64,000 bases of DNA from Isoetes taiwanensis (taxonomy: Eukaryota > Streptophyta > Lycopodiopsida > Isoetales > Isoetaceae), in NCBI GenBank assembly GCA_021234155.1, contig JAJEKV010000095.1:3422621-3486620 (forward strand), read 5' to 3'. The position numbers and the translations under genes are program-made. The number at the start of each line of letters is the position of its first letter. The first letter of the stretch is position 1. Of this stretch, positions 1,472 through 41,916 are shown in pieces. Under the pieces are notes generated by a model that was given only the letters and a program-made list of their open reading frames with translations, was not told the DNA's origin and did no database searches.

Positions 1472-2905
1472 TCATGCATTGTCCTTTATTAGGTATCTGA
1501 TGGTCCTCTCCCATGCTCTCACCTCCATTGGTTTCTGCCCAGTTTTAAGTATCATGATTGTTAGTGGTGTATTTGCCCATACCTTAAATTCCTGTTTGTG
1601 CCATTGTCTGAGGATTCCTTCCTGTTTGTCCCACTTTTTGCCTGTTAAACCTGGCCCCCAAGCTTCAGCCCCGTATAATTGCATCGTGGCTACTACTGCA
1701 TTGAATAAGTAACACTTGATGTCCCAGTCAATTATTCTACTTTTATTGCAGAACTTTTTCATATTGAAATAGCTCCCTATGGCTGATTGGAACCTCATGT
1801 CTGTGCCCTTAGCCCATTTCCCCGTGCTCTGTGCATCATACCCCAGATACCTGTATTCCGCTGATTCCTCTATTTCTGTCTCCATATACCTGAAGGGTCT
1901 ATGCTTACTCTTATGCCCGAAGATGACTATCTTGGTTTTTGCTAGATTTACTGTTAGCCCTATTTTTTCACAGAAGTTTTCCAGTATCTTTAGTAGTCTG
2001 TGCATCCCCTTATTCTTTGTGGCCATCATGCTCAGATCATCAGCGTACAGCATAATAGGTACCTTGGTATCTCCTAGTATAGGGGCGTATTCGTCCCCCT
2101 GCTATTCTGCTATGTATCCCTGTAGTGCATCTATGTATATCCCGAATAAAGTCGGGGATAGAGGGCATCCCTGTTTGACGCCTGTATCACAGTCTATTGC
2201 CTGCCCTCCCTGTTCCATCTTTGCATATACCCTATGGTACAGTCTTGCAATTGATCCTACCATGTTTCTTGGAGCATGCATATCTATCAACCTTTGTAGG
2301 AGCTTCTCCCTCGGGACTGTGTCGAATGCTTTCCTAAAATCTACAAAGCAGCAAATTATTTTCTTTCCCTGTGCTTTGTTCTGCTCTATTAATATACGGA
2401 GGGTTACTAGATGGTCTGTGGTTGAGTGTTCCGGTCTAAAACCCGCTTGTCCCTGTGCCCTCAGATTTCCCGCTTCTACCCATTGTTTCAATTTGCTGTC
2501 CAGGCTTTTCCGAACCATTTTGCGAAGATGGAACTCACCATTATTGTCCTATAGTTTCTGGGATCTTTGTCTGCTTCCCCCCTTGTGTAGAGGTATGACC
2601 CTGTTGTATGTCCACCTGTCTGGGAGCCCGGTATATATTATGCCGTTGAAAATGTCTTTGACTTGTTTCCCTATTGCTCTTTCAGCACACTTTAGTAATT
2701 CCACTGTTAGTCCGTAGAGATCAGGGGCTTTGTGATTAGCCATCCCGTTTAAGGCTATCATTACTTCCTGCATGTTGAAGCACAGTTTATCCATATTCTG
2801 CAATGTTAGTATTGGCATTGGAGATGCCCCTATCCTGTATAATTTCTCCAGATATTTCTCCCATCCGACTGCTCCAATGGTGTCCTGCTCATTCTCTGTT
2901 TTCAT
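1472..2905 (-). pseudogene. LINE reverse transcriptase
   Basis: Three minus-strand frames cover the enzyme. 2905-2549 holds the N-terminal fingers (NHKAPDLYGLTVELLK, RVIPLHKGG). 2518-2102 holds QAGFRPEHSTTDHL, CCFVDFRKAFDTVPR and GCPLSPTLFGIYID. 2053-1472 holds the active site MLYADDLSMMA and the thumb region (YGAEAWGPG). The YADD box is intact. The frame breaks lie near 2530 and 2090. Antisense open frames of up to 312 codons in this interval are shadows. Confidence 0.85.
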
Positions 2906-2958
2906 ATTCCCACCTCCCCTCCTTTTAAATCCCTTCCAGAATCTTCGGGGTTGCCTTT

Positions 2959-4240
2959 TCAGCAGTCTGGCGCTGCACCAAGTTTTTGTTCCGTTTTAAC
3001 TTCAGCAGTCTCAAGTATGCTGCTCGTCTCCTTTCCTATATGTTCTTTGACCCTTCTTTTTTGTTCCCTGCATTCCTCATCATACCATACAGAGGCCTTA
3101 AAAGCATTGCTCTTCCTGGGTCTCTTTCCTTTCCTGAATACCACTGTTGCCACTCTAACCATAATGTCATTAAGGCTATTGCCGTTGTCATCTGCCTTAT
3201 GCTTTCCCCATTTCCATCTTCCCATTTCTGCCCTGGCCAATTGTATTAATGTATCTGTATACTTTTCCTGAAATTGGATTTTTATCTTCGCCTTCTCTTT
3301 TTCCTTTTCCCCTGTGTTATCAGCTTGTGTCGGCTCTCCCCCTTTGAGTGTTAACTGTATAGGTATGTGGCTTTCCCTTTTCCCAGTTGGCCATTCCAGT
3401 AGCATAAACCCTGCGACGATTTCCACTGCTTGGTTATTCATAATTACATAATTACATAACTGCTTGGTTATTCCCGTATGTATTCTGGCTCGTGAAGTTC
3501 CCTGATCCTCCCCATTTTTGCACCCCATTAGCTATGATTACCCCTGTCGCCGTACACATTTCGAGCAGTAATTCACCTCTGGCATTGATCTCTGCCTTGT
3601 CTTCTGTATCTCTCTTCCACTCCTGTGTTCTTGGTGTATATATCATCTGTCTCATCAGTGTTTGTGTTTTGTGCTTGTTCATGTCCTGTTCTGGCATTTA
3701 AATTCCCTGTTAGAATCATTGGTCCTTGTTCTTTCCATTTCATCATGTCTCCCTCAGGTCTAACAGTTCTAGCTTGTCACTGTTTGGTGGGTAATATGCT
3801 ATGATCAGAATTAGGTCTTGTTTGTTTTGCAATTGAATGTTTAAGACTATGTATCTTTTATTGATATCTGAATGTAAAATACATGCACTGTTAGCTACAC
3901 TATTCTTCACATAACAGGCCAGGCCTGCACTTCCCCTCCTTATCTTGAAATCTTTATCTTTCCAGCACATGAATAGCTGATACCCCTCTTCCTCCGGCAG
4001 CCTCTTGACGTTGTGCTCCCATGTCTCTACTAGACATATTATGTCGCAGCTGTGGGCTCCCTCGAGCCTCGCTCTGTCGTCCCACGGGTATCTGGTACAA
4101 TTCCAGTACCATATTGTCAGCGTCTCTTCCCCCGAGGTGGCTCCTTTGGGGTCTCCGTGTATTCTGTCCCATTGCCTGCTCTTCTCGGTCTTCCTCTGGT
4201 CTTCATTGTCGTAGTTGGGCCCATGACCCCCGTTCGTGGT
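2959..4240 (-). pseudogene. LINE AP-type endonuclease and linker
   Basis: The endonuclease begins near 4115 with LTIWYWNCTRYPWDD and the catalytic-type VETWEH, followed by RRGSAGLACYVK and IIAYYPPNSD. The later parts (below about 3700) sit in other frames. The linker ends with WYDEECREQKRRVKEHIG at about 3050-3080, a motif common between endonuclease and reverse transcriptase in LINEs. This domain nicks target DNA to prime reverse transcription. Frames are broken, so no intact enzyme is encoded as written. Confidence 0.75.
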
Positions 4241-4329
4241 GTTCGGTCTTCGTCGACCCTGTTTCCGTTTCTTTCTGCTCCTCCGTGCTGACTCCCTTCT
4301 AAGGTTATCGCTTTTAGCGCCCCCAAAGA

Positions 4330-5003
4330 CTACGCTCTCTCCGCCCTGCTTGCATGGTCGTGAGGGTTTATATTTTCCTTCTCCAATTCTATTGCTTTTG
4401 TTAATCCCTGTGCCCCCATATTTTGTTCTTGCGTCAGGATCCTCTGTTCCCTTACACTCTTGTGAAGGTATACTTTGCCGTTCCTGACACCCGCGTGTAT
4501 TCCTGCTTGATTCAGCTCCCTGGCCTTGGCTAATTCCCTGTGCAGCCCCTGGCGCTGCATAACTGTTAGAGCCTCTTGTACTTTGATCCCATTCCTCAGC
4601 CTGGATCCCATCCGCAGTATTCTCTCTTTGGCTACCAGGTCCCTCAGTGTCAGGTTTATGTGCCTCGACCGCCCTCTCCATTGGCCTGCCCGCACTGCTT
4701 TGACAATGATGCTACAGTGTTCCTTGAAAACTGTCTCTATTATCTCTGCAGTCACTCGATATATGTCCTCATTAGGTTTCTCCGCTACTCCTATCAATCT
4801 AACGTCATGCTTAATTCTATTCTGCTCCTCAAATTCCATGATATATGGCTTTATCCTATCAAATGACTCCCATGCATCTAACTCAATTTGATTTCTCTAA
4901 TTCAACCAACCTCTGCATAATTTTAGCCTTCTCTTCTTCAATCTCGTCCATTCTGCGCTGCATCTCCTCGCTTGTCCTCTCGACCCCTTCTATCCTCACG
5001 TCC
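4330..5003 (-). pseudogene. LINE ORF1-like RNA-binding protein
   Basis: A likely ATG lies at 5003. It opens a charged coiled coil (TSEEMQRRMDEIEEEKAKI), then the frame shifts near 4885 and continues as KHDVRLIGVAEKPNEDIY with the later segment VQEALTVMQRQGLHRELAKA. The coiled coil, RRM-like part and basic C-terminal part match the plan of L1 ORF1p, an RNA chaperone that coats the LINE RNA. In this copy it runs straight into the endonuclease region, so whether it was one or two proteins is unclear. Confidence 0.6.
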
Positions 5004-5555
5004 ATACTGTATTTTGTTGCGGTTACACGTAACAAATTTTTTATATAGGATGGTGATATAAATGGCTTTAAAGCAGAGTTTCATTAAAGTTGGAAATTTC
5101 GTGATTCCATTTTCGCTCGAAATGAAATTGTTCGTTGTTTTTTCACACATTCAGCATTCAAATCTGCGCTATTTACTTAAAAATGCACAAGGATTAGCTT
5201 GAAAACCGCTCTATTTGACACGAAATGGGGCGGAAATCGACGGGCGAAACAACCTGGTTGCGCCATTTGAATAAAAATTGTGGAAAAAAAGCAATAAAGT
5301 CGCTGTATTTGAAGTGAATCATAAGGACAATACACGGAAAAAAGCAAACAAATAGCGCGGCCGCGCAGTCTGTTGCAATATATTCATATTGCAAATGGCG
5401 CTGCTGCGCTATTTGCTTTACAAGTAAGATATACAAAAGGGGCAAATACATTAGGATCGTATGTGTCATCAGTATTCAAAAGATTCATCAGTACAGTAAT
5501 CATTAATACCACAGAGGTAAATCTTATATACAAGTATGATATGCAAATCAGTTTT
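5004..5555. other. spacer between LINE 1 and the ParB-methyltransferase-like gene
   Basis: No gene seen. AT-rich sequence with scattered short CG-rich words. It holds two hairpins listed separately (5355-5366 and 5391-5416) and a half-site GCGCCATTTG near 5259. This is the 3' flank of the minus-strand gene that ends at 5556. Confidence 0.4.
5355..5416. repeat. two GCGC hairpins (family AAATGGCGC), 3' flank of the methyltransferase-like gene
   Basis: 5355-5366 is the perfect palindrome GCGCGGCCGCGC. 5391-5416 is GCAAATGGCGC-TGCT-GCGCTATTTGC, 11-base arms with one mismatch. These are the leftmost members of the hairpin family that is dense up to 10.7 kb. Confidence 0.8.
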
Positions 5556-7118
5556 TCAATATTGCTCACCAAAAACATTATCATCTGCTTTATCAATATC
5601 ATCCGGGTTAATCTTACTTCGGTCAATCTGCGTTTCTGTGTCTTGCACCACTTTTTCCCCGGATCCTGTGGCCTCTCCTGCACCAGCCTGTGACCCCTCT
5701 CCTCCACCACCATGTGATGTCTCTCCTCCACCACCATGTGATGTCTCTCCTGGAGTAGGCCCAGTCAGTGTCAAAACTCGACGAGAGTCCATGGCTGCTG
5801 GATCAAGCAAGGGATTAATGACGTTGTCAATTCTTCCAAGAATCCCTAGCATACATTGGATCATGCTCATAGGCCACACTACTCCTTTTTAACTGCAATG
5901 ATGCCCTAGTAAAAGCCCCACCAGAAAAAAAGTCCAGAACAAAGTTACCTGGAGGGCAGAGCTTATCGACAAGGTATGCTGTTGTAGCAGGACCAACCTA
6001 CTTGTGAACCACGTATTCCCCTTCCATACCTTGCCAACTGTATTTGAACCTGTCCCTCAGGAGCTTGTTAGCCAGATTCTCTGGCTCGGCACCAACTGCA
6101 TCTTTATGGGTCTTAGGAACTTCAGGTGCTTTCCGGGGATGTTCATCATAAAACCTGAGATCCAGGTGTTCATCAGGCTGTGCTTGGGCTGAGATCCTGG
6201 TGGCTAGACCATAGCTGTTGGCTCTTTTATGCCACCACTAGGTGCCCACCCATTTTCCTCTTCATACATGCCTAAGTAAACTCTAGATCTGGATTCTAGT
6301 CTCTCAAGGGCAGTGCCGAAGAGACTCGTATGTTCCGGCCTAGCAAAACATATTATCCAGTATGTCTCAACATTTGTCATCTTAGAAGCAGCATCAAAGA
6401 ATTTGGCCAGAGTGGGGGGATCCCAAATCGGAGTAATTTGCCTCGCATCCAAACAGATCATGCTGGCAGGCAACACGATCGGATCCTGGACAATCCCACC
6501 ACTAGAAACGCACTCCACATGAAATCTTTTGAACTCGTCCTCGGCCTCGGGCTTTAGAATCTTACGGATGGATCTGCCTAATGAGAAGGGCACATTACCA
6601 TGGACGCCCTCTTTCAGTATTCCGTCTGAGACCCACTTATTATGTACCACACCCCACGATAGGAGGGTTGAGTCTGGGAATCCGTCGGACACCTTTCTCA
6701 AGTCCTCGAACTTTCTGTACTTGATTCCAAGTTCATCATGGATGTAGTTGAGAATCTCCTTCTTCATGTAGGCAAGAATCCTCAAGTTCTGTGCTCTCGT
6801 CTTGAAAAAATTATCACCCTTATAATCCGATGTGACCTTAACATAAATGTCCCCTCTGATGGCTTCCTGCAGGACAGTTCTGCAATCTTCATAATCCAGG
6901 CCTGTCATGCATCTGAGGTAGTTCTCGCTAAAATAGTCCTTATCCTTTGCCCAATTGACTGCTATTTGTTGGCCCCTGTTATCTTTCAGCTCCCCCTTTT
7001 TCCATTTATTCCACATTTGGCGAAAGAGAGCGTAAATGTCGTCTGGCATAAAAACGAACCTGTTGACATCCTTAGTATGCTTTCCCCTGAGAATCTTGTC
7101 AACCATTTCAAGATAATG
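5556..7118 (-). pseudogene. C-terminal exon of ParB-methyltransferase-like gene: permuted N4/N6 amino-methyltransferase fold
   Basis: The exon opens after a good acceptor (GCCTTTCAG) with HYLEMVDKILRGKHTKDVNR and stays open to about 6204. It contains CLDARQITPIWDPPTLAKFF, which I read as the catalytic DPPY-type motif IV (here DPPT), then TYWIICFARPEHTSLFGTAL. A frame change near 6215 leads to YGLATRISAQ and EYVVHK, an in-frame TAG (5997-5999), then LCPPGNFVLDFFSGGAFTRA and VAYEHDPMYAR. That last part is the SAM-binding motif I (VLDxFxGxxF...E.D..Y). Motif IV before motif I is the class beta order of bacterial and phage N4-cytosine/N6-adenine methyltransferases. Another frame change near 5845 leads to a Gly-rich tail with two GETSHGGGG repeats, ending at 5556. 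The Thr in DPPT and the breaks may mean loss of activity. Family call is from motifs only. Confidence 0.6.
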
Positions 7119-7239
7119 CTGAAAGGCAAACCAAATATGTTAGAGCTTGAATGCAGCAAAGTAGTATCAAATGGCGCCGCTGCGCCATTTGGCATCAAAT
7201 GGCGCCGCTGCGCCATTTGCTTCATACGATGGTACATAC
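7119..7239 (-). other. intron carrying two identical hairpins
   Basis: On the minus strand the donor is AATACAAG|GTATGTACC and the acceptor is TTTGCCTTTCAG|CATTATC. The exons on both sides are joined in phase 0 (...SRSDEYK / HYLEMVDK...). Of the 121 bases, 50 (7169-7218) are two copies of the AAATGGCGC hairpin at a 28-base spacing. The correct borders and kept phase are the best evidence that the surrounding gene is or was a real spliced gene. Confidence 0.7.
7169..7218. repeat. two tandem AAATGGCGC hairpins inside the intron
   Basis: 7169-7190 and 7197-7218 are identical: AAATGGCGC-CGCT-GCGCCATTT, perfect 9-base arms and a 4-base loop. Confidence 0.9.
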
Positions 7240-7776
7240 CTTGTATTCGTCACTTCTTGATTGGCCTTTTCCTGCTGGTGCTGGCTTGCCGCACTCCTGG
7301 TATTGCCTACGCAGGTGGTGTATCTGATCTGCGTATGGTTCCTTAAACACCGTCCTGGCTACGATGTCATTGAGATCCACACCGAAATTTGAAGAAGGTC
7401 CAAGTCACTTTCGGTGCTCGGAAAGAACTCTGCCAGAATCTATAAGTGTAAATCTTTTCGAAGTTTTATTACGGCATCTTCGTCCCCAACCCGACCACGA
7501 CGAAGTTGTGCGGTGAGAGACGAATGGTTGCCATTGATGATGTAGAACCTCATACCGGCCGGTCGATTCTTGTGACCATGGTACTAGGCGCTTTGTATCT
7601 GGATCAAAGGGCACCACATCTGCCGGCGTGAAGACTGGATGGGGATCTTCAGCAAATGACTTGCACAGTTTCCTAACATGTTCAGGATTTACAACTCGTG
7701 CTGTCATGTTAGGAGGTGCCTCTTCCATATCCCAGATGGATATTTTTCTGATATATGTCACACCTAGAGGAAACAT
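7240..7776 (-). pseudogene. ParB-like domain exon of the same gene
   Basis: After TTTCCTCTAG (a good acceptor) the frame reads VTYIRKISIWDMEEAPPNMT, ARVVNPEHVRKLCKSFAEDP, then VFTPADVVPFDPDTKRLVP. After a frame change near 7565 it reads MRFYIINGNHSSLTAQLRRG. This is the ParB/Srx-type pattern: P-N-x-R, then L-x-x-S-F/I, then a Tyr-x-Ile-x-x-G-N-H-x-x-x-A box. A stop (TAG, near 7440) and another frame change precede GVDLNDIVARTVFKEPYADQ and the exon end SRSDEYK at 7240. In bacteria and phages ParB-like domains are found in front of DNA methyltransferases of the type seen in the next exon. The exact function of this plant copy is unknown. Confidence 0.55.
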
Positions 7777-8729
7777 GTGACCAGATCTTTCTTTGTTTTT
7801 TTAGAGTTTCTTCTGCCAACTCCTCCTCGGCATCACGATCCATCTTCAACTCCGAAAGCACCTCTAGACTTTCCATTTTCCTCTGCTTTCTGACCCTCGT
7901 CTCCTTCTTTGTTTCCCTCCTCCTTTTATGCGGAATGCTATCAGCCGTCGATGCAGCGCCTTTACCTCTCCGTTGTGGGGAGGATTTAGTATCACTAATG
8001 GTTCTCTCTGAATCCTGTTTATCCGGGGACTTGATAGGAGAACCGATAGGTGTCCTGATAGGAGGAGACTTGGGAGCTCACTTGGGAGGAGACTTGGGAT
8101 TTTCCTCGTCTTTCTTTTGATTCTCTTCCTCATGCTCTGTCCCTTCTATTTGGACTGCTCCTTTCTTTGGTTTGGCTTGCCTAAGGTTTGGCTTTCTCTT
8201 CCCATCCTTCTTTGTAATCTCCATTTGAAGCGGTCTTTGTCCATTAGAGCAGGCATATTACCGAAGGTCTTGGCTCGACAATATGTGACACTTGAGTTCT
8301 TTGATCGTCCATGGCTGAGCGGAGAATGCCAAATCCTCTAAGTAGCTCGGCGCGGTGCCATTAATAGCAGCTGCCTCTACGCTTTTCATTATGAAGGCAG
8401 CGGCCGACCTTTTCTTTTGGCGTAGATATGCGGTCCTTGATCTTTGGATTCCATCATCGTGGATCATAAACCTGCCGATCCATGCAAGTCTGGATCAATG
8501 GTGCAATTCACGGGATCCTCCACTGTGCAACCAAGGAAGTCTAATCTTCCCTGCTTTTTCACCTCCCGCATGTTGACAATGATGCCAAGCTGCATCACAA
8601 CGTCCTGTTCACCACTTCTCGACTTTGTGAGGAGGCAAAGTTCTCTCCTCTTGTCCCCCTTTGTGGGGTCGACCCTTCCTCCAAGGGAATTGCCCTGACA
8701 ATTTCCATGCACCATGGCCTTCCAGCCAT
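7777..8729 (-). pseudogene. N-terminal and linker part of the ParB-methyltransferase-like gene
   Basis: The likely start is the ATG at 8729 (MAGRPWCMEIVRAIPLEE); a second frame offers VNMREVKKQGRLDFLGCTVE and CTIDPDLHGSAG. Continuation in shifted frames gives FMIHDDGIQRSRTAYLRQKK, IKELKCHILSSQDLR, and then a long Lys/Glu/Ser/Pro-rich linker (KSPPIRTPIGSPIKSPDK; KRRRETKKETRVRKQRK). The linker looks disordered with nuclear-localisation-type basic clusters. Stops at TAA near 8270 and TGA near 8080 interrupt it. No known domain was recognised. A short intron ending at the TTTCCTCTAG acceptor near 7770 probably joins it to the ParB exon. Confidence 0.4.
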
Positions 8730-8848
8730 GACCACGGTCTTCTCCGTCACAACGTTTTGGGCCTTGGACAACGAAGCTTCACAAGAAAACAACTAATCAA
8801 CATTCAAATCATGAAACCCCAACCCAACCCACTACGCCATTTGCATGT

Positions 8849-9244
8849 AAATGGCGCAGTGGCGCCATTTTCTCGACTGGCGAATGGGGAATCCCTCAAC
8901 CAGCCAACAATCCAGAGTGTACACTCCCTATTCTCGCCTCGCGAGTCGAGACATTCTCGACACGCGAGTCGATAATAAGGCCTGTACTTTCTAGATTGTT
9001 GGCAAGCTGAGGGAGAGGCGACTTGCCAGTCGAGAAATGGCGCAGTGGCGCCATTTGCATTATACTAACCAAATGTAAATGGCGCCACTGCGCCATTTGC
9101 ATTATACTACATCAGCTCTAAACAAACTACAAAACTAACACATCCCAAAGAAATGGCGCGGACGCGCCATTTCTTGCAGACGGGACCACAGAAACTCACT
9201 ATCCTAGACACCTGGACACATGAAACAGCGCGGTCGCGCTATTT
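8849..9244. repeat. cluster of five AAATGGCGC hairpins upstream of the methyltransferase-like gene
   Basis: 8849-8870 and 9035-9056 have loop AGTG. 9077-9098 has loop CACT, the same sequence in the other orientation. 9151-9174 has 10-base arms and loop GGAC. 9223-9244 is AAACAGCGC-GGTC-GCGCTATTT with one mismatch. A half-site lies near 8834. All arms are perfect or nearly so although the loops differ, so the stem is what is kept. Confidence 0.9.
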
Positions 9245-9399
9245 ATATACCCATGACCCAGAAAACAACTAAAAAAAAAGATTGAACTAACCGGGAACCC
9301 GAGGCCATCGTGATATGCTAATCGCACAGGATCGCATTAACGGACCGTAGAAATTGTACTCCAACTTTTTGTCTGGAGCTCCTGGATCAACAGGCGCTA

Positions 9400-9500
9400 C
9401 TCGAAGGCGCTAGAGAGAGAAACACAAAGGCGCTAGAGAGAGAAATTTAAGGCGCTAGAGAGAGAAGGCGGAAGGCGCTGGGCGCTGGCGGAGGAGAAGG
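9400..9500. repeat. GGCGCTAGAGAGAGAA short tandem repeats
   Basis: The word GGCGCTAGAGAGAGAA occurs three times within about 60 bases and decays into GGCGCTGGCGG to the right. Confidence 0.7.
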
Positions 9501-9579
9501 CGCTGGCGGCGGATAAAATGAAATGAGAGAAATGAAATGAAGAGAGAAAATGAAACCGTCGAAATTAATGGCGCGCAAG

Positions 9580-9765
9580 GATTTGTCCGCCCGCCACTTG
9601 AATTTCTTTGCATCCGTCAGCGTCCGCCCGGCGTCCGTCCGTCCGTCACTTGAATTTTAAAATTTGAATTTGAATTTCCTGCCCGTCCGCCAATTGAATT
9701 CTAAAAATTGAATTCCCCGCCCGTCCGCCACTTGAATTTTAAAATTTGAATTCCCCGCTACTTTT
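9580..9765. repeat. CCGTCCGCC plus TTGAATTTTAAA block
   Basis: Alternating CGTCCGCC words and ACTTGAATTTTAAAATTTG words, repeated about four times. Similar CCGTCCGCC words occur just inside the left end of the inverted-end element at 60.1 kb. Confidence 0.55.
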
Positions 9766-9989
9766 CGCATATATTGTGCCAGTCCCTGTCTCAAAGCTGT
9801 TTATAAAATCTGCGGGTACAGATATGGTAAGCGTATATGCGCTTTCGTCTTCAGATTATTCCGTGTTGCGATTTTACGCTCCCCGCCCTCGCTCAACATT
9901 CGCGGTACTTATACCGAGAGGACTTGGCCGCCAAATCGACGCGTCTATTCGCCTTAGGCATTGGTTCGGCCAGGCGCTTTGGGCGCTAC

Positions 9990-10195
9990 CCAACCCGATT
10001 CTGGCGCTTTAGTTGGTTGGCGCTTCACTTGGTTAGCGGGCTTCTTCATTTCATACTTGGCGCTACCTTGATTCTGGCGCTTTAGTTGGTTTGCGCTTCA
10101 CTTGGTTACTTGAGCGCTTCTTCATTTCATAGCAGGCGCTTCTTCATTTGATAGCAGGCGCTTCCTCTATTTTGAAGGCGCTTACTTGATTCAAG
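9990..10195. repeat. GGCGCTT-rich interspersed repeat
   Basis: Blocks such as TTCTGGCGCTTTAGTTGGTT and GCAGGCGCTTCTTCATTT recur with variable spacing. The GGCGCTT core is seen about ten times. Confidence 0.6.
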
Positions 10196-10294
10196 GCTCT
10201 TCCCTTCATTCAATGGCAGATTCTCGATCTACAATGACCCCAAGGTTAGTGACTGTTCTGTTTTAGTTTAACTGTCAGCAATTTCTCCTATAAG

Positions 10295-10520
10295 TGCAGA
10301 ATAATGTTTCTACTCTGTAGTAATCTGTAGTAACCTGTAACAATCCAGGAAATAATCTGTAGTCTATAGTAATCTGTAGTAATCTGTAATGATCTGTAAT
10401 AATCTTGTGCTCTGCAGTAATCTCTACTAATGTGTAATCTGTATTCTTTAGTAATCTGTAGTAGCCTGTAGTTATATGTAGTAATCCGTAGTAATCTGTA
10501 ATGTGTAATCTGCTTTCATA
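10295..10520. repeat. TAATCTGTAG tandem repeat
   Basis: A degenerate repeat built on the 10-base word TAATCTGTAG, with variants TAACCTGTAA, TGATCTGTAA and TAGCCTGTAG. Confidence 0.75.
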
Positions 10521-10550
10521 AGTTTTCCTGTTTTGTTTCCTAAGGAAGCC

Positions 10551-10709
10551 AAATGGCGCTGGTGCGCCATTCGCCTCAAAATAGTGCAGTCGCGCCATTT
10601 GCCTCAAATAAGCGCCAAGCGCCATTAAGGCAAATGGCGGTTTGTGCTATTCGAGGCAAATGGCGCGCCGGGCTGCTATTTGAACAAATGGCGCTTTTCA
10701 GCGCCATTT
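10551..10709. repeat. cluster of AAATGGCGC hairpins, some decayed
   Basis: 10551-10572 has loop TGGT. 10579-10600 is AAATAGTGC-AGTC-GCGCCATTT. 10607-10652 holds two decayed forms. 10658-10681 is AAATGGCGC then a variant right arm GCTGCTATTT. 10686-10709 has 10-base arms and loop TTTC. Five or six stems in 160 bases is the densest cluster in the window. Confidence 0.85.
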
Positions 10710-10782
10710 ACTGTTTTTTGTCAATATTTTCTCGTCATTTCCGCGGGTTTTCTAACAATGTGTGTGTCATTGTATGCTTGCA

Positions 10783-11454
10783 GGAAAAGGACCTTGCAGA
10801 ACTTCCTCTGTGGTGACATGGTTGTTGCCAGGGGGCATGAACTGCATAGAGGGCACCTACATGAAAGAACATTGACTACTTTAAGAACGTCGTCGTGGAG
10901 GTTACTGAAGCCATAATTCCATCCCATGTGCTTCCCATTCCATGTGCAGGCGCAGATAATGTTGCTGAAGCCGTAGGCACATTGATCGAATGGCCTAGAC
11001 GTGACGTGAGAATCTGTCCAGATGCTTCACCTGTATCATCATCTGATACGGAAACCCCCAACCTGCCTAGTAGTTCCTCTACATCGTCATCACACAGTTC
11101 TCCTTCATCTCAGCCAATGAGCAACACGGAGAACTTGGTGAACTTATGCAGTGACAATGTTGTTGTTGGCAGTGAATAGAAGTATCATCCATGGGAAGGA
11201 TGTGGATGCACAGAACGTGGTTGTGCAAGTTACCGAGGCTGTGGTGCCAACTCACGTGCTTCCGATTGCATGTGCGGGTGCAGATAATATTGCAGAGGCT
11301 GTGGGCACATTCATCGAATGGCCTCGAAGCGATATACGTTTTCATGGCATTGATGCAGCCCATGATGAGACACCAAGATCAGACATGGGGACACCTACCT
11401 CACACAACTCATACATAGAATCTGTGGAGGCAGTATCAGATGCAGATGAAGAGA
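10783..11454 (+). pseudogene. tandem DUF8039-like modules (plant transposon-associated protein)
   Basis: After the acceptor at 10782 the sequence reads GDMVVARG, then, with a frame change near 10885, NVVVEVTEAIIPSHVLPIPC and VAEAVGTLIEWPRRDVR. A second copy at 11205-11345 reads NVVVQVTEAVVPTHVLPIAC and IAEAVGTFIEWPRSDIR. The pattern V-x-V...LPIP...EA.G..I.WP is that of the DUF8039 domain, found in plant proteins tied to En/Spm-type and other transposons. The first copy is followed by a Ser-rich linker (SSSSTSSSHSSPSSQP) and a stop at 11177. The second is cut by the inverted-end element that begins at 11455. Family assignment is from pattern memory only. Confidence 0.55.
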
Positions 11455-12603
11455 TAACCATCATTCATTTATTTTGGGATTATGTCTATTCCAAAATCGC
11501 GCCACATAAGCATTGTTTTCAGTGCATTTAGTGTTTTTTAATTCCATTTTTTGCATTTAAAAAACTGTAGTGTATGTTGTATATTTTATTATTTTCTTAC
11601 ATTTGCATTAAACAAGGCAAGGGAAAGACCCATTTGCTTGAAATTAACAGCAACAAGATATAGCATTACAACAACAAATATACTTGAATTAACAAATTCT
11701 ATATTGACATTACAACGAAAATAATCACTTATTTAACTAAATCAATCAAATATTAGAATATGTAAAACATAAAATCACTCTAATATATAAATATATTCAA
11801 AACAAATAATGGGATGTTTATACTTAATGGGATGTTTATATCTTGTTTTCTGGACCATCGATCTGGGGAATATTCTCAGATCAAGGGCCCTTAATTTTTT
11901 CCATACGCACCCCACGAAAAGTTTCAATGGTGCAAAACGAACCAATGGTTCGTGCCAAAACCAAAAAAAAAAAAGGAAATAAAGAATTGCAGAACCCACT
12001 GAAGGCGGCTATGGACTGCCGGAATGGGGCTTCTAACATGCAAATCGGGCCTTCGGGTCTGATTGCCGACACCCTCAGACTAATTTTAAGCTACTTTGGT
12101 GCATATCCGGCTTGGGTTGCTGCAGATCTGCACCTCCGATTATGGCGGCTATGGCCCCTTCCAGATTCTTGTGTGGCCCTATTTCCTTCAGGTCAATCCT
12201 CCTGAACCTATTTCGGCCAGTTTCCAGGCCAAACCGAGCTGCTTTAGATCGCCTCCCTTGATACCATCTTCGCTCCATGCCACAGCCCTGCCATCGACCT
12301 GCACACAAATCACAGATGGAATCGGCTAATTGCAACTCAGGCCCTGTCTCAGATCGAGGCAATGCAGCTCCTCAAGTCACCATGCCGGTCTGCTTCAACA
12401 CACAACCAGCCCAGACCTCCCCTGCGTTTGCCCTGTGCCTGCCTCTCCTCCGCTGCCCTTGCCAAAAAAAGAAGGGAGCGTCCCTTCTCATCCACGCCCT
12501 AAAAAAACGCCGCCAATTTTTTTTAAACTATTGAGCTCACTTAAAAAAAAAAGCACAAACGCATCACCCAAATAGAAACTTGACCCCCGCAACAAATAAG
12601 CAG

Positions 12604-12719
12604 CTCTCACCTGCACAAACATACCATTTTGAATACAATACCATACCAGAATCTTAGTCCCCTCTCACCTGCACAAACATACCATTTTGAATACAATACC
12701 ATACCAGAATCTTAGTCCC
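12604..12719. repeat. 58-base tandem duplication
   Basis: 12604-12661 and 12662-12719 are essentially identical, each beginning CTCTCACCTGCACAAAC. Confidence 0.95.
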
Positions 12720-14167
12720 CACCATTGCCAGAAAACCCTCCCCAAATACCAAACGAATTGGGCAAACATAATCACATCTTTTTAACAATCCCTTGTAGCA
12801 TTTTAGCCAAATAAAGCTGCAATATCTCTACAAATTAACAAAGGTGATGTCCTAAAAAGAGAAAATTGTGATAAGACGTGAGGGTTAAATCGCGCCAAGC
12901 ACGATTTCATGAGCTATGATAGTGCAGCTACACAAAAAAATCACACTTCTACGTGTAGCTATGCAGTAACGCTGCTTTAGAATGTAGAAAAGTTTGAGAC
13001 CGTTGTGCAATATTGAACCCACAAACTGCATCGTTTTCAGATCAACAGAACTGCGGCTCTTATTCAAGCACCATCTTCTTCACCAACCTTAGCTCCAATA
13101 CTTTCCACTGCAATAATACCCCGATGGATCTGCTCCAACCCCTGTTTGAGACAAATGGGCTATGGATGGCAGTTCCAGACTACACTTTTTTATCTCTTTT
13201 CTTTGGAAGTAACAGAAACCAACTAATTCCTTCTGCAGTATTCATCAGCAGAAGCATTAACACCAGATTGTGTAAACTATTATATATGCATATGTCTAGC
13301 CCTGAACATGCTTCCCTTCCTTATACTGGAGATATAGAAGAGCTACAGATGCCACAAGACTCAAAAATAGCTGCAAAATTTGCATCTGAGTTACAAATTT
13401 CTTCCATGGTGTGTTGAATCCCAGACTAGAAAGAAAGAAATAACCATATACAAAGGTCCTGAGCGCGGTACATGCAAGCAATATGACAACTTGAGAAGAT
13501 TGAATATATTCAGGCTATGAAAAGGGTATCAAAATCACATGAAACAGAGTAATATGACACTTTGGCAGCACCACAATCAGTGTACCCAAAATCTCATAGA
13601 TCTTTGAAAGATGATACAAAATAAGGCCAAAAGAAAACCTTACCAAAAGCTCAAAATCTGACCAGAAAATAGAGCAGCCAAGTTGCCCCATTTTCTTTGA
13701 TCTCTGCCGCTTGAATCTGCTCCAAAGCCCCTGTTTCTTCATCTTCTTCAGCTCTGGCATTACTATACTAGCTCCGGACAAGAACTTCATCTATAAATTT
13801 CGTCTGAAAATCTATAACTGTATAACTTGAAAATCAAATAGACTATGAATCTTGTAACCCCATCAAATATAGATTTCTATTCTGTTCTGCTCACCTGCGC
13901 ACCTGTGATTGCCATTGTTGATGTCTGCAATGAGGGCCGTATCTACATAGTCTTTCCATATTTTTTTTTTATCTAAGCAAGCACAAAAGTACAAACCACC
14001 AGAGTCTAAGAGACACCAGAGACTGCCCAACATGCTGCATATCTTGGTCACTGAGAAAAGCATATATCTTTTGAATAGTAATCCCCTGCTATTTGAAGAA
14101 GCACATGAAACCACCGGCTCATTGCAGTTCTATTTTCCACCTAATTCTCTTATAGAAGTGGCTAAAA

Positions 14168-14266
14168 AAGGCTTATTAAACATAGGCTCCAATTCCATAC
14201 AAAAAGCTGTCTTCAAATGGCTTATTAAACATGGGCTCCAATTCCATACAAAAAGCTGTCTTCTAG
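14168..14266. repeat. about 48-base tandem duplication
   Basis: Two adjacent copies begin GGCTTATTAAACATRGGCTC and end AAAGCTGTCTTC. They differ at a single A/G site. Confidence 0.9.
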
Positions 14267-15136
14267 TGCTAGAATACGCAGAAGCATGCTCGGGCATATT
14301 GCTAACACTGCAAAACCAAATCCTACAGAAAGAGCATGATTATTTAGAACTTGAAGGTGAAATTAAAAAAAAAAATAGAAGCAAATCCTATATAAGAGCA
14401 AAACTCATTTAACAATCTACTGACGAATCATCATAGGTGTTAGTTAATCATTGACTATAATCCAAGCAAGTATTCTGAAACAAAACTGCACAAAACTCCC
14501 CTGTCCAGGTCCAATTTTCTATGTTTATCGTTTGCTCCAAAATCCGACCATCTTTTTCTGCTGTTTGCAAAATCCACCTTCTTCTGCCGTTTTGCACATG
14601 CTATTTCATGTCATATTTTATACTGCAGCCATATTCCGTACCCTTTTCATGCCATATCCGTTGCTTTTCATGCCATATTCTTTGCTGTCCACATCCGCTA
14701 CTTCATGCCATATCCATTGCATTTCTATATCTCTCTAGTTGCACCTCACGCTAGGGCAGAAAAGAAAACGAAATGGAAGAGGGAAGCCACACTCTGGCGG
14801 AAAAGGAAGGGAAGCCACGCTCGCTCTGGCGGAAATGGAAAATAAAATGGAAGAGTGAAAAAAACGAAATGGGTGGGAGAGGAAAGAAAAAAAAAGGGGA
14901 GGAAAACAAAAGTGAAAAAAGGAAAACGGCTGCACCCAGGAGGACGCGTGAAAAAAAGAAAACCGATGCACCCAGGACGCACGACGCGAGGGAAATGAAA
15001 ATCAAATTAAGCACACGGGCGGGAAAAGCAAAAGCGGCAAAAGATGGCAACGACCGCAAAAAGTGACAATCTAATTTTGTCCCAAAATTAAGACATATTC
15101 TAAAAATATTTGAATGATGGTTAGATTGATCCATCA

Positions 15137-17985
15137 GTGGATTTAGCTACTCGGTTTGCTTGCAGAATACCATCAGATGATGATGAGCCACCACCTAGTT
15201 ACTCAAGAACAGAACTCTTGGAAATGCAGTGCCACATTCTCCATTCTTGTACTAGAACTAAATATGCAGAAGCTATAATTCTATTCAGTGATCCACAGGA
15301 TGCTGTTGATGATGAATTCTTAGGAGACATAAAGGTTGGCCTTTGTGTTGGAAAGGTGCTTCCTGAACTAATGAAAGAGGATCTGAGATGTCATGCTTGT
15401 GCAGAAAGGCCAAGTGACAATGCACTTGTTCGGTGGGAAAATAGCGATGTGATGCTGCTGGATGGAAGGACTGTCTCACAACATCTGCAAGCTCGAGAAG
15501 CTAAAGAAAATGAGGATATAGAGCTAGAATCATTTGAGGACAACATTCAGGCTCAATTCAAACGAAAGAGGAAGTATACTTACACACATAGGATTCCAAG
15601 AGAGCCCAAGGGAAAAAGCAAAGAGGAAAGGCTATGCTCCACAACTTCAATCAATAAGTTCATGAAGTCAAGCTCTTTGCAAAAAATACTTGCAACAAGA
15701 AACTTACCAAGCATCAAGTACGTGAATTAAGAAAAGAATTTTTATCCCAACCATACAATGCAAGGGTTACGTTTTTTTTTTACGTGCTGAGTGTGACTTA
15801 CACAGGAGAAGGAGAGGACAGGATAGTGCTCAAGGGGATGGAATTCTGTCTGGCTGGGTGGCGCATGGCTTTAGGTATCAGTCAGTCAACATTTTACAAT
15901 TGGAGAAACAGATTTGAAGCGGGTGCAAAGGTAGTGAACATGGTAATACCGGGCTCTAAGAAGCCTAGATCCACTACACCGCCACCAAATGTGTGCTAGA
16001 TGATTCATTCGAGGAGAATGTTGAAAGTACTCCCCATAGGAGCAAAAAAAGAGGTAGAGATGATGTAAGAGAAAACGTCACATAAAGCTTCCTTCCATTC
16101 TTAATAAGAAGCTTATACATAAAGAAGTTGGTGCAGTCGTTGAAGAGCTTACAGGAACAACTGTAGCCTTGAACTCTTTTTATAGTATATGGAAAAGGGA
16201 ATTTCCAGATGTTAGCATTGCAAAAAATACAGCCTTCTCTAAATGCAACATCTGCGTGGTAATTAAGCAAAAGCTGAAAAAAACAAAAGATACAAGAGAG
16301 AGACGAAATCTTGCAATTCAACGTCGGCCTCATATGCTAGAGCAACATTCTTGCAGAAATCAATATTGGCATTGGAGAGCATTGTCACAGCAGTCTCCAG
16401 AAAATCATCTATGTATAATACATGATAAGATGGATCAGGTTAAGACTTTAGTGCCTAGAAGTCATCATCTAGCAAAATCTGTATGGAGAGGTGATCACTT
16501 GAAGAAGAGTTTTTGACAGAGCTCGACTCATGGGCATGGTGGTCGTGCCTATGGTCATTTCTCACTTGATTTATGGAAAGATGATTCAAACTTCCACATT
16601 GGTTCACTTTCTAGAATATTGCATAACTTGGAATTGGTACAAGAGGACAAGATAGGTGACTTATGTGGAAGTAAGCCTACAGATTGCAAATGGATGCAAG
16701 CAGTCAAGGATACCAATCCTTTGAAGAACAAACTTGCTTCTATGGCAGAAGTATTGCCAAATGCTTCAACTACAACGAATCCTGAGGTGTTCAACCCTCT
16801 CCCCCGAAATCTCTATTTGCAACTTGATAATGCATCAGGGCAAAACAAAAATAGGTATGTCTTCTCATACTTATCTTATTTGACTTGGCTTAAGGTCTTT
16901 GATGAGATCCAAGTGGGCTTTATGATGGTCGGCCACACCCATGATGATATTGATGCTTTATTTGGAAATTTTTCAACCTTGATGAGTTCATCGGATGCTT
17001 TGACACTACCAGAGCTACTTTACTTGTTCAGCAAGTGCAATGCAAAATCTCCAATTCCATACTTTATTGATGAAGTTCCAAATTGGAAGGCTTTTGTGAA
17101 GGGATTCATCCCTGATAAGGGCCAACGCCTGGTTGGGCATACTGAACCATTGCTCTTCAAATTTAAGATGGCAGGAGATTGGCCTGTTATGCAATACAAA
17201 ATCGCCCTACACATAAAGAGTGGCTTCAGCCAGATTCTCCAGGAGTTAGAATGTGGAAAGAGGATGAACATGGTCAGCCAATGCTACCAAGTGGTGTGCC
17301 ACAAAATATTCCTCCTAGACCAACATTGAAGGATCTTCCAGGGTTGAAGGATAGCATCAACAAATACATCTCCCTATGGAAGGACATATGTAAGAATCAA
17401 GAAAGTAGCTTGTTTGCAAGGCAATACACGGCAAGTGTTGAGTATTGGAGCCAGCTTCTTATCTCTTTGGAGGATGTTGCTCCAGGACGTCCTCAAAATG
17501 ATGCATTTTGGCCACAAACAAGACAAGCTCCTCTAGAACAAACAGCATTTGTTCCAGAGGTCGACGTATCTGCCTTGGTCACACGACCTTTACCATCTTA
17601 TTGTGGCCCGTCAGATGGCCGTCCAGTGTTGCCTCTTGAAGAGTTTGATCCTCGCGTACATGTGACAAAGGGTATGTTTGTTCTAGTCAGACCTGGAGAT
17701 GATAACACTGCCACTTGGTTAGGATATGCAGAGGAGAATGCTGTTCTTGATCCAGAATCTACATATTTTGGCCATATTTTTGTATTGTGGTGGAAGCCTA
17801 CTGGAGGGGACTACAAAGACTGCTTGACTAAGCATTGGCGGCCTAATCCTTCCGATCCTTCAAGGTATGAAAATTTAGATGCTATTCATTATGCCTGGGA
17901 TGCCAATGGCAAGAGGCCGAAAACAGTCCAAATTCCGAAATATATTGTAGACATGTGGAAAGACATAGCACATTGTTCATCTTAA
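15137..17985 (+). pseudogene. DUF7869-type transposase-like gene, frame-broken
   Basis: Successive plus-strand frames read like one protein. 15137-15730: N-terminal region (LATRFACRIPSDDDEPPP) with a basic end. 15784-15999: a helix-turn-helix-like part (GISQSTFYNWRNRFEAG). 16080-16515: FYSIWKREFPDVSIAKNTAF, the Cys pair CNICVVIKQKL and HDKMDQVKTLVPRSHH. 16619-17200: LPRNLYLQLDNASGQNKNR and VGFMMVGHTHDDIDALFG. From 17179 in another frame: a C-terminal domain to 17985 (VTKGMFVLVRPGDDNTATW). The LDNxxGxNKNR and VGHTHDDID boxes with DxMDQ look like the acidic sites of an RNase-H-like transposase; DUF7869 proteins of plants carry these boxes. Frame changes near 15740, 16000, 16080, 16515 and 17195 break it. 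Exon 1 seems to start after CATCAG at 15136. Confidence 0.7.
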
Positions 17986-18149
17986 TACATGAGATCTTGT
18001 ATTTGTAATACATATCTTTCATCTTAATACATAAGATCTTGTACATTACTATATTTGTGATCATATATAACTGCTTACATCTTTAATATATAAATGCATA
18101 CACGATTCATAGATAAGATGGTCAGAAGTGCTTATATGTTGAACAGGTG

Positions 18150-18390
18150 ATTCATTCATCTTCAGGATCTGTAGTAGTGATCCCTGATATCTCATAGCTC
18201 ATGCGCGCCGGGAAGCCAAATCAAATGGATCATAACACGAATTGACGGAGGGCAATGAATCTCGGCCAAAGCTTTCTCTTCGGTAGGGATCAAGAAGAAG
18301 ATGTCTGTCTAGGCAACCAACAAGATCAGAGTGGCTCATTGAGCACTTGATCGCCTCGATGTGGTGAACAGAAGAAGGCAAATAATCCAT
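18150..18390 (-). pseudogene. tiny gene, copy A
   Basis: Unknown family. ATG at 18390 (MDYLPSSVHHIEAIKCSMSH...) in a good plant start context (CTCCCATGG). The first half aligns with copy B: IKC-x-MS-x-x-DL-x-x-C and a later MDP/LDP. One frame change near 18240 would restore the second half, RVMIHLIWLP and a tail ending DPEDE, matching RVVIHLYWLP and VDDE in copy B. About 78 residues if the frame were kept. It lies 266 bases from copy B, same strand, with a nearly identical 5' flank. Confidence 0.45.
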
Positions 18391-18426
18391 GGGAGATGAA
18401 TGACCTCTAGCCCCGAATGGAGCTGT

Positions 18427-18433
18427 TTTTATA
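18427..18433 (-). promoter_or_regulatory. TATA box of tiny gene A
   Basis: TATAAAA on the minus strand, about 40 bases before the ATG at 18390. About 75 bases around it are shared almost exactly with the region before copy B. Confidence 0.55.
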
Positions 18434-18655
18434 GTGAAGTAAAATTATTGATGTGAATTATTGGGGTGGACCGGTCATGCCATCGCTGAGCCGTATACAA
18501 GTATCATGTAATGCAGGTATGATTCTATCATGTACTCGATTCTATACATCACCTAATATTCACTATGCTTATATTATATATATCCTTATCGGATACACAA
18601 ATCATAAGTGCTTATATTATTATATCCTTAACGGTGTATCTGGATCATCACCGAT

Positions 18656-18898
18656 TCACTCATCATCAACACCGAATGAGGTAATGGCATTCAGCTCATA
18701 GATCTCCTGATCAGGAAGCCAATATAGGTGGATCACAACACGAGTGAGCTTCCTGCAAGCACTTGCAGGACCATCTGCTTTGGATTGCGGCCATGGATCC
18801 ATCTTGACACCCTTTATTGCGCAATCATACAGATCATTGTAGCTCATGTAGCACTTGATGGTTTGGATGTTCTCCGGACGATCAGGCAAGGAAGCCAT
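18656..18898 (-). CDS. tiny gene, copy B (intact, 80 residues)
   Basis: Intact frame: MASLPDRPENIQTIKCYMSY, NDLYDCAIKGVKMDPWP, LTRVVIHLYWLPDQEIYELN, ending GVDDE. No known domain, signal peptide or membrane segment. The same plan is seen in copies A and C: I-x-C-x-M...D in the first half, V-I/V-I-H-L-x-W near the end, and an acidic C-terminus. ATG context is CTTCCTTGCC after CTCCCATGG. That three diverged copies keep the same peptide pattern and the same TATA-to-ATG spacing supports a real coding gene. Function unknown. Confidence 0.55.
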   Translation of the reverse strand: MASLPDRPENIQTIKCYMSYNDLYDCAIKGVKMDPWPQSKADGPASACRKLTRVVIHLYWLPDQEIYELNAITSFGVDDE

Positions 18899-18934
18899 GG
18901 GAGATGAATGACCTCTACCACCGAATGGAGCTGC

Positions 18935-18941
18935 TTTTATA
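18935..18941 (-). promoter_or_regulatory. TATA box of tiny gene B
   Basis: TATAAAA on the minus strand, 43 bases before the ATG at 18898, inside the block shared with copy A. Confidence 0.6.
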
Positions 18942-19031
18942 GTGAAGTAAAATTATTGATGTGAATTATTGGTGTTCATTGCCATTATACGAGTACCATA
19001 CATGTATATGATCCAATAATTTCTATGTATA

Positions 19032-19113
19032 TACTATTAATAATTTTGGTGAGTATATACCATCAATAATTTTGGTGGGTATATACCATCAATAATTTTG
19101 GTGGGTATAAATA
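19032..19113 (+). promoter_or_regulatory. 26-base repeat array and TATA box in front of tiny gene C
   Basis: About three copies of AATAATTTTGGTGGGTATA lie end to end; the last runs into TATAAATA (19106-19113), about 30 bases before the start region of copy C. Confidence 0.5.
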
Positions 19114-19139
19114 TACATCAAATTGCCGTCGAAAGCAAC

Positions 19140-19402
19140 ATTGGCCTCCCGATCTAGCTATGACGATTACGGTCTTGAACGTGATTCTATCACTTGCAAG
19201 ATGAATCATGAGGACTTCAAGCGTGTCGCATGGCGAGATATACCGCTTGAAGGCGGCTCACCACCTTGTTGCTCTCAATCCTCGCCATTATCCTGATCCC
19301 GTCGATGTTATCATCCATCTCCTATGGAATAGAGAGTATCAAATGTTCATGATCGAAAGGATCTCTGGAGCGCCTTCTGCTAGTTCTGATCATTCAGAGT
19401 AA
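19140..19402 (+). pseudogene. tiny gene, copy C, start and frame damaged
   Basis: Same plan as copies A and B on the other strand. The place of the start codon reads ATTGGC where copy B has ATGGC, so one inserted T removes the start. The first half reads DDYGLERDSITCKMNHEDFK (compare IKCYMSYNDL). After a frame change near 19230 the second half reads YPDPVDVIIHLLWNREYQMF and ends SSDHSE (compare RVVIHLYWLP). Inverted to A and B. Confidence 0.45.
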
Positions 19403-20851
19403 TAGTAGAAGAATAATAGTACTTGTTATCTTATTGTAATCTGGTTGTGTTAGTATACAACAGGTATACATAACCTTTTGTGATACACATAACCGTAATA
19501 TATGTATTGATGTATACTAGTATACACATGTATACATAACCTTATGTAATACACATAACCATACTATAAGTATTGAGGTATACATAACCCTCCAAGTATA
19601 CTATATAAAAATTATTCCAACTTGTCTTCAGAATTCCAACTTTAATGAAACTCTGCTTTTTAGTGAGTTGGCATGATGATGGCTTCAATTTTTTTTTTTT
19701 TTTTTGAAGGAACGAAAAACATTTATTCAAAAAATTGGAAGAGTTTAAACAGAAGTAATCCCTCAAGGATTAGATAACAATACAACACCATTGCATCTTC
19801 CTTGGAAAGATTACTATAGGAGAAACTCAACATCTTCATCTTTCCAATTCCAATGCAAGATATAAAGACCCTTTCTAGTCAGATAGAATGCAGCACACGG
19901 TGTCCACTACAAAAGCTAAAGGATAGAAAGAAGAGTAACCAAATCTTGAAGTTTGCCATGCTGATTCACATCCTTCAAAAACAAATCTTGTAGCACAATC
20001 CTCAAATGCTGCCAGATACTAAGGTATAGCATTGTCTTAGCAGAAATAGGCATTCTGAGGCATATCAGTACCTGAGTGATGTTGGGCATATCAGAACCCA
20101 AGATAAGAACATATTGGGCATATCAGTATCCCATTTTAGGCATAAGAGCACCTGAATAGTGGTAGATATAGTATCAAGATTAAAAAGAACTCAAGCATGG
20201 CAATACTTGAGTTAAATATGGGCATATTTTATCTGTCATCATGCTTTAGAGTGCTGCAAGAAAGGCTCTAGAAGATTGTTCATCATCAAAACAGAAACAA
20301 GCTTTGCCATTAATCATTCTAAACTAAATAGCTGATCTTTCTCGCTAGGTAAGAAAGAATGGAGCACCTAGCCAGCATAAACCATCTTGCTACCAAATCA
20401 CATAATAAGATAATCCCTGCTTATAGAAAATATCATGGCTTTTCTTCGTGATGACCTTCATTTGCAGCTTCTTTTCTTCGCCTTATAGGCCAATATCCCA
20501 TACACGGGCATACCCTTTTGGCATGACAAAATCCGAGGAAGAAGTCATAGCAATTCACAAAAGATAGTGAATCACCAAAGAAAGAGTCCACGTTAGTGGA
20601 ATACCTACTGTAAACAGAGGAAAAAGATCATGACCACCTGAGAAAAATCGAGATACTAACTGCAGCAGATTAGAAGCTTTGATTGTGGATAGCAGGATGG
20701 AATCGCTACGCTCGCATCAGAAGAAACCTCAATCGGTGCATTTTCCGCTATAAGGTTCAGCCAAGAAAGGGAGGCTGTCGCCTACCTAGCCGCTTCCGCT
20801 CAGCGCCATGAAAGAAAACCATCCCATCATTTTTAAGTTTTGCCTCAAATA
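19403..20851. other. spacer with TA-rich repeats and a retroelement-like poly-T
   Basis: No gene seen. 19450-19600 holds two copies (about 68-base spacing) of GTATACATAACCTTNTGT plus TACACATAACC. A T-run at 19689-19706 followed by GAAGGAACGAAAAACATTTA looks like the tail of a minus-strand retroelement. From 20020 to 20220 the word GGCATATCAG recurs. Confidence 0.4.
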
Positions 20852-24340: not shown

Positions 24341-24643
24341 GGGACTTTCGATGATCTGCCCGGTTCGAGGCGGCGATTAAAAGCGGCGTCCCGAGCAACG
24401 ATCGGGCGGGCGGGGAGCAAGAGGTGCGAGGGGTATGCGGCAACAAAGCTAGAGGGCAGGAGTGGCGGCGGCGGCGCATTGCATCGGCGACCTCGGTGGC
24501 GCCAGGCTTGAAAATGCGAAGTTTCCCGGACAAGGCTGCGGCCCCCCTCTACGACGGACGTCCCGACTGGGCAGTGGCGCGGCGGGACTCTGTTGCATCG
24601 GGGGTGAGATCTGGTCGACATCTGAGCAGTCCCCTTCAATTGC

Positions 24644-26880: not shown

Positions 26881-26922
26881 AAATCAGTATTAATATCGTT
26901 CAAAAAAAAAAAAAAAAAAAAA

Positions 26923-32900: not shown

Positions 32901-32930
32901 TAACTAGAAAACTGAATTTAAGAAAAAAAA
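29920..32930. repeat. array unit 2
   Basis: Full unit, joined to units 1 and 3 through GAATTTAAG plus an A-run of eight. Confidence 0.9.
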
Positions 32931-38442: not shown

Positions 38443-38468
38443 TAAAAAAAAAAAAAAAAAACATATTT

Positions 38469-41913: not shown

Positions 41914-41916
41914 ATT

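Follow-up and report, generated by a model that had tools for sequence, protein, structure and literature searches.

The DNA analysed here, a stretch of 64,000 nucleotides from Isoetes taiwanensis that we call the window (assembly GCA_021234155.1, contig JAJEKV010000095.1, positions 3,422,621 to 3,486,620), had been interpreted in a sequence-only reading as carrying, at 5556–8729, a ParB-like domain joined to a DNA methyltransferase in a host modification gene. We found that this broken gene belongs to a terminal inverted repeat (TIR) DNA transposon, instead of being a host modification gene in its own right. The interval 5556–8729, treated in that reading as the whole unit, spans only one gene of the element, which occupies 5071–19658. 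This gene (minus strand, 8776–5556), referred to below as the accessory gene, has in our judgement about an even chance of encoding a predicted methyltransferase-derived, likely non-catalytic protein that binds palindromes of its own element.

A multi-copy TIR transposon with two divergent genes

The element, which is not assigned a strand, has a sharp end at 5071 that is common to its relatives, and an inverted copy of that end lies at 19658. The TIR, AAGCAGAGTTTCATTAAAGTTGGAA, forms the last 25 bases of the element copies; in the window it is found at 5071–5095 on the plus strand and inverted at 19658–19634 on the minus strand, with 25 of 25 bases identical. Both ends are flanked by the target-site duplication TTTA (5067–5070 and 19659–19662). 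Fifteen of the 16 copies compared at the 3' end, the window copy included, stop at the same terminal base and continue into unrelated flanking DNA. We looked for the far end in six further copies and located it in three, each with a matching 4-bp duplication, but not in L048, L049 and L053. All four elements with both ends located carry 4-bp duplications, namely TTTA (window), AGTT, TAGG and TTGT.

The element spans 14.6 kb in the window and 10917 bp (~10.9 kb) after removal of a nested insertion at 11456–15122. This insertion, likewise given no strand, is foreign to the element; it is 3,667 bp long, with 12-bp terminal inverted repeats (AACCATCATTCA) and the target-site duplication AGAT. In copy L025, the equivalent of window position 11455 joins that of 15123 directly, and the insertion is missing from all relatives of the host element compared at that site.

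We searched the I. taiwanensis genome (1,658,258,908 bases, 1110 contigs) with the 311-residue longest exon of the accessory gene. At least 130 match rows were obtained from the 127 candidates scored among 3399 first-look candidates, the window copy included; rows are not equivalent to elements, as a few copies yield two, and all genome match counts given here are lower bounds. Apart from the window self-match, identities ranged from 49 to 97%, and many of the matches have open frames longer than 500 residues. A search with a second subfamily gave at least 92 rows from 82 scored candidates, overlapping with the first list. Among 20 copies taken with their flanks for comparison, both long exons are open in two, L030 and L034.

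The second gene (plus strand, 10213–17984, start predicted) is divergent from the accessory gene, and in the window it is broken and split by the nested insertion. It shows similarity to a helix-turn-helix (HTH; E 0.00014) and includes an open frame at 16517–17326 on the plus strand with the DUF7869 domain (PF25273; E 5.2e-38), the putative transposase core. The corresponding gene of L044 is open over 861 residues, and this frame matches DUF7869 at E 2.9e-34 and, weakly, an HTH. The DUF7869 protein is probably the transposase, as indicated by the position of its gene within the element, the residues D...QNKN...HTHDDID and the HTH similarity. No solved transposase structure matched it, a single-sequence fold was too poor for use, and we found no mention of DUF7869 in the accessible portions of the open-licence literature.

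Linkage of the two genes is also seen at other loci in the genome. A divergent DUF7869 row lies within 25 kb of at least 35 of the 130 accessory-gene rows, and at least 23 of these pairs are 4.8–6.9 kb apart, as compared to a chance expectation of 0.56 pairs. Similarly, such a row lies within the same distance of at least 14 of the 92 accessory rows of the second-subfamily list. The DUF7869 protein itself gave 11,526 first-look candidates versus 3,399 for the accessory exon, which may mean that transposases of this type are spread more widely through the genome than the accessory gene.

The accessory gene and its methyltransferase-like protein

The accessory gene lies on the minus strand. A predicted mini first exon (9292–9308, MASGS-), followed by a GTTAGT donor, is one base longer than in L030. 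Exon 2 (7240–8776, start predicted) covers an N-terminal region, a charged linker and, at 7240–7770, the region previously called ParB-like; it contains frame changes and stops. An intron with GT–AG borders (7119–7239) separates it from exon 3 (5556–7118), which holds a helical region, a permuted methyltransferase-like region and a low-complexity tail. In L030 and L034, the gene has the predicted mini exon MASGS, ~510 residues including the charged linker, and a last exon of ~520 residues. The intron proposed by the sequence-only reading is supported by natural copies, which carry their reading frame across the same borders. That reading was likewise supported in seeing an amino-methyltransferase-related sequence with permuted motif order in a plant gene that has introns and encodes a long charged linker.

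Along the path from 8729 to 5556, the window copy has seven frame changes, intron excluded, and four in-frame stops. The peptides quoted earlier do lie on the minus strand, where they are distributed among its three frames, and this copy of the gene is very likely dead. Of the two causes that had been offered for its state, a pseudogene or an assembly error, a broken copy is supported; an assembly error is unlikely, because the copy is a decayed member of a family with open copies, its second gene is also broken and the element carries a nested insertion.

We aligned 12 natural last exons, which are 42–97% identical to that of L030, with L041 (44%) and L042 (42%) among the most diverged. Between subfamilies, the nonsynonymous divergence (dN) is 0.21–0.23 and the synonymous divergence (dS) 2.57–2.76 in the six pairs with estimable dS, giving a dN/dS of ~0.08; in the remaining pairs dS is saturated and dN reaches 0.55. 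The low ratio, which leans on near-saturated dS, suggests that the accessory protein was under selection.

The relationship to methyltransferases is clearest at 5830–5997 (minus strand), where motifs X and I (VGPATTAYLVDKLCPPGNFVLDFFSGGAFTRA...VAYEHD) are recognisable. The profile search proposed with the sequence-only reading returned a weak match of this segment to N6_N4_Mtase (PF01555; E 0.00054, 20.4 bits), below the curated cut-off of 26.7, and no match to ParB; a PHROG DNA methyltransferase family matched at E 0.00011. Among the natural exon-3 members, 6 of 12 gave a weak N6_N4_Mtase match (best E 0.0017) and 4 of 12 matched the PHROG methyltransferase family (best E 0.00032). When the C-terminal part of the family was aligned with eight phage methyltransferases by hhalign, a probability of 90.6% (E 1.3e-6) was obtained over 71 columns covering motifs X–I; the best of 30 column shuffles reached 1.1%, and the alignment of the ParB-like region reached 0.1% against the same phage profile. 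Against solved structures, the exon 3 profile found RsrI at E 0.069. A tblastn search of phages with exon 3 of L030 and L039 gave nine records at E 0.7–9, six of which are annotated as DNA methylase or methyltransferase. Single-sequence folds of two window pieces had mean pLDDT confidence scores of 30 and 40; the low-confidence exon 3 fold shows a strand-helix-strand-helix-strand order at residues 226–293, consistent with a methyltransferase half without proving it. Taken on sequence grounds, the presence of motifs X–I of a class-beta amino-methyltransferase in the accessory family is supported.

Catalysis is another matter. The window peptide WDPPT, previously proposed as catalytic motif IV, is not conserved: it reads WDPAT, WDSAT, WNSET, WDNTT or WDKTT in the 16 readable relatives, none of which has WDPPT. 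No [DNSE]PP[YFWH] occurs in the natural frames searched, 14 of exon 2 and 17 of exon 3, some being incomplete. At the position where the motif order predicts DPPY, the copies have a conserved LD[AT]R..[TN]P.W (LN or LH in two copies); in the window, LDARQITPIWDPPT (6411–6452, minus strand) is the proposed equivalent of motif IV, and [DNS]PP[YFW] is missing there in the copies read. The FxGxG position reads FSGGAF, FSAGAF, YSDGAF or FSCGSF, with its glycines partly substituted. The missing motif and the altered FxGxG make a loss of methyltransferase catalysis likely, although short of proof, since the motif-IV half was placed by order and pattern alone. The protein thus resembles class-beta amino-methyltransferases (PF01555; RsrI and phage methylases) in having motif X and then motif I in its C-terminal part, but differs from them in its sub-cut-off score, the missing [DNS]PP[YFW], the altered FxGxG, and its extra helical region and linker.

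No counterpart of the proposed ParB-like domain was recovered at E≤10 from Pfam (0 of 11 natural members), PHROGs (0 of 11) or NCBIfam (0 of 5), and this candidate was set aside. A loose pattern in the region, NGNHSVSAAQL followed by LSDLDLLQLSVDVND, recalls the ParB box, a resemblance without profile support. Comparison of the region with solved structures gave nothing below E 0.28, and tblastn against phages found no relative.

The bacterial or phage origin suggested earlier for the gene has in its favour the similarity of motifs X–I to phage methyltransferases; against it, no relative was found among 5.8 billion proteins at cut-offs of E≤0.001 and E≤10. Viral contigs contained no relative, and tblastn of exon 3 against plasmids gave none. 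A remote bacterial origin of the ancestral gene is possible, and the phage or bacterial source claimed for it is unproven.

Clustered palindromes and their candidate reader

The element carries clusters of a 22-bp palindrome, AAATGGCGC-NNNN-GCGCCATTT, in which the four central bases vary. The window contains ten of these at up to three mismatches, all within 5393–10600, where none would be expected by chance in 64 kb. One lies on the 3' side of the accessory gene (5393–5414, one mismatch) and two exact ones within its intron (7169–7190 and 7197–7218). The region upstream of both genes has four exact palindromes (8849–8870, 9035–9056, 9077–9098 and 9151–9172) and one with three mismatches (9223–9244). 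The last two are in the 5' region of the second gene, in its predicted intron 1 (10551–10572, one mismatch; 10579–10600, two mismatches), and a variant with a 6-bp centre follows at 10686–10709. Besides the palindromes, short repeats containing GGCGCT occupy 9394–10180, just before the putative transposase start.

The same arrangement holds in other copies. In 17 of the 20 copies, leaving out L031, L032 and L033 with their interrupted ends, we counted 208 palindromes in 112,310 bp of element, against none in the 57,690 bp of flanking DNA, where 0.15 would be expected; if the 5' boundary lies beyond the piece, all upstream DNA was assigned to the element, and the flank total therefore comes mainly from the 3' side. 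The number per copy ranges from 6 to 28, and the commonest spacings are 28, 26 and 27 bp. In the 11 copies with both long exons, there are 119 sites, of which 85 lie upstream, 19 occupy the intron, 13 are at the 3' end and two fall in an exon-2 frame. Thus, 117 of the 119 fall outside the exon open reading frames (ORFs), and both exceptions, in L025, precede the conserved coding start. Genome-wide, 2,385 exact palindromes were found versus 0 for a reversed control pattern; among the 50 listed, 44 have a neighbour within 2.5 kb and 21 have a listed gene match no more than 15 kb away. One exact palindrome was also seen in each of the viral contigs L021, L022 and L023.

The half sites are retained in L041 and L042 despite the low identity of their exon 3 to that of L030, and the palindromes are shared between subfamilies whose remaining non-coding DNA yielded no alignment. 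A site that stays fixed while non-coding DNA and half of the protein change, that is placed in the intron and upstream region, and that is restricted to the element in all flanks examined is most readily explained as a binding site for a protein that the element encodes. As for which protein, no palindrome was found on the side of the second gene wherever it was examined (window 15123–19658, L044 past 5411, which covers the main frame of the second gene, and L045, L046, L047 and L051). We take the accessory protein to be a better candidate reader of the palindromes than the transposase, since sites are missing from the examined parts of the half of the element that belongs to the second gene.

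On this basis, the accessory protein would bind AAATGGCGC-N4-GCGCCATTT in the intron of its gene, upstream of both genes, in the first intron of the second gene and near one end of the element, often at sites 26–28 bp apart. Binding would sustain expression of the element, or flag it to the transposase, and leave the rest of the genome unaffected. The element would thereby gain sequence-specific control or protection from silencing, comparable to what VANC proteins provide for the VANDAL elements of Arabidopsis.

Several observations weigh against such a role. The methyltransferase alignment spans only 71 columns, and the motif-IV half of the protein is placed by order and pattern. The protein yielded no recognisable DNA-binding domain: profile libraries gave nothing for ParB, and the two single-sequence folds had low confidence. 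The dS of 2.57–2.76 behind the dN/dS of 0.08 is near saturation; within subfamilies, dN/dS is 0.24–0.77, with a single pair at 1.21. Another arrangement of the two genes occurs in six listed rows (three of 130 and three of 92), and of the 50 palindromes listed genome-wide, 29 have none of the listed gene matches within 15 kb. The palindromes could also be read by the transposase or by a host factor.

Transposons often bear repeated sites for their transposase, and the second gene combines its HTH similarity with DUF7869; the transposase, or its HTH, might therefore read the palindromes like subterminal repeats, leaving the methyltransferase-like protein with some other role. We consider this unlikely, given the one-sided distribution of the palindromes where examined and the location of 19 of the 119 inside the intron of the accessory gene itself.

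Slightly less probable again is a working N4-methylcytosine (4mC) or N6-methyladenine (6mA) methyltransferase that acts on the palindromes and thereby marks self DNA for the transposase or blocks silencing. Motifs X and I are recognisable, amino-acid changes between subfamilies are few for the silent divergence, and CpG and GCGC are frequent in the palindromes; moreover, transposons of algal viruses have been reported with methyltransferases, according to the accessible part of one study (PMC3627910). Such an enzyme is difficult to reconcile with the missing [DNSE]PP[YFWH] and the substituted glycines of FxGxG, particularly as a change in the SPPY of the rotifer enzyme N4CMT abolished 4mC addition, as stated in the text available from PMC8885841.

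Lower still in probability are host-factor sites or promoter or hairpin elements that have been conserved by happenstance and are unconnected with the accessory protein. The position of 85 of the 119 palindromes upstream of both genes would suit this, whereas their presence also in the intron and at the 3' end, at 6–28 per copy, and their conservation between subfamilies without other alignable non-coding DNA would not. Finally, a lone bacterial or phage modification gene that was captured by the plant and then broken, as the sequence-only reading proposed and as the phage-like motifs X–I might suggest, is hardly credible, because the more than 100 dispersed gene copies, the element ends, the target duplications and the linked second gene refute a single captured gene at this locus.

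To our knowledge, few transposon-encoded proteins are known to recognise their own element for escape from silencing. If palindrome binding by the accessory protein is correct, it would add an independent case of self-recognition, one built on a methyltransferase fold. A close parallel is VANDAL21 of Arabidopsis, whose protein VANC21 is located in the introns and in the intergenic and terminal non-coding DNA of its own element, where it binds a short motif and causes loss of DNA methylation (PMC5735166, accessible sections). Like VANDAL elements, the Isoetes element is a plant DNA transposon with an accessory gene beside its putative transposase, and with clusters of an element-specific motif in its introns and in intergenic and terminal non-coding DNA (PMC5735166, PMC10398659; both as far as their available text goes). 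In contrast, those sections describe a short VANDAL motif, YAGTATTAY, with rapidly diverging repeats, whereas the 22-bp palindrome is conserved across very diverged subfamilies; the accessory protein, unlike VANC, is methyltransferase-derived. We tentatively suggest, by analogy, that a plant transposon lineage may have turned a bacterial-type methyltransferase into a non-catalytic palindrome reader for self-recognition and anti-silencing, analogous to VANC and perhaps unrelated to it. Between diverged copies, such a reader would be only ~43% identical, with its DNA site unchanged.

Other likenesses are more partial. The N4CMT of bdelloid rotifers is also a bacterial-type amino-methyltransferase in a eukaryote and linked to transposons, but the excerpts of PMC8885841 describe N4CMT as a host enzyme that is active, has SPPY and targets transposons for silencing by marking them, whereas the Isoetes protein is transposon-borne and the motif is missing. 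Mariner elements of algal viruses and Sola2 elements carry methyltransferase or Fanzor genes, and thus an accessory gene beside the transposase; Sola2 also makes 4-bp duplications, a likeness in duplication length (PMC3627910, in its accessible part). Unlike in those carriers, Pfam found no Fanzor/TnpB and no C5-methylase in the scanned pieces. The accessible open-licence literature on Marchantia 4mC, ParB-methyltransferase fusions, DUF7869 and transposon-borne N6_N4 methyltransferases contained no description of this element. The site is sharply defined and present in ~2,400 genomic copies, which makes its binding, methylation state and expression directly testable. More broadly, methyltransferase genes of bacterial appearance in non-seed plants may belong to transposons and lack catalytic motifs.

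Other features of the window

The surroundings of the element are rich in repeats. Two regions on the minus strand, 1475–4896 and 21509–24548, resemble long interspersed nuclear element (LINE) reverse transcriptases by eye, and the first adjoins the left end of the transposon. A tandem array of ~3.0-kb units, with nearly four copies that are 97–98% identical, occupies 26912–38450. At 41916–52843, two direct repeats of ~2.46 kb (96% identical) surround ORFs that by eye resemble gypsy-type polyproteins, and this region is probably a long terminal repeat retrotransposon. Near the end of the window, plus-strand ORFs at 62272–63573 resemble, again by eye, an acyl-protein thioesterase or carboxylesterase gene.

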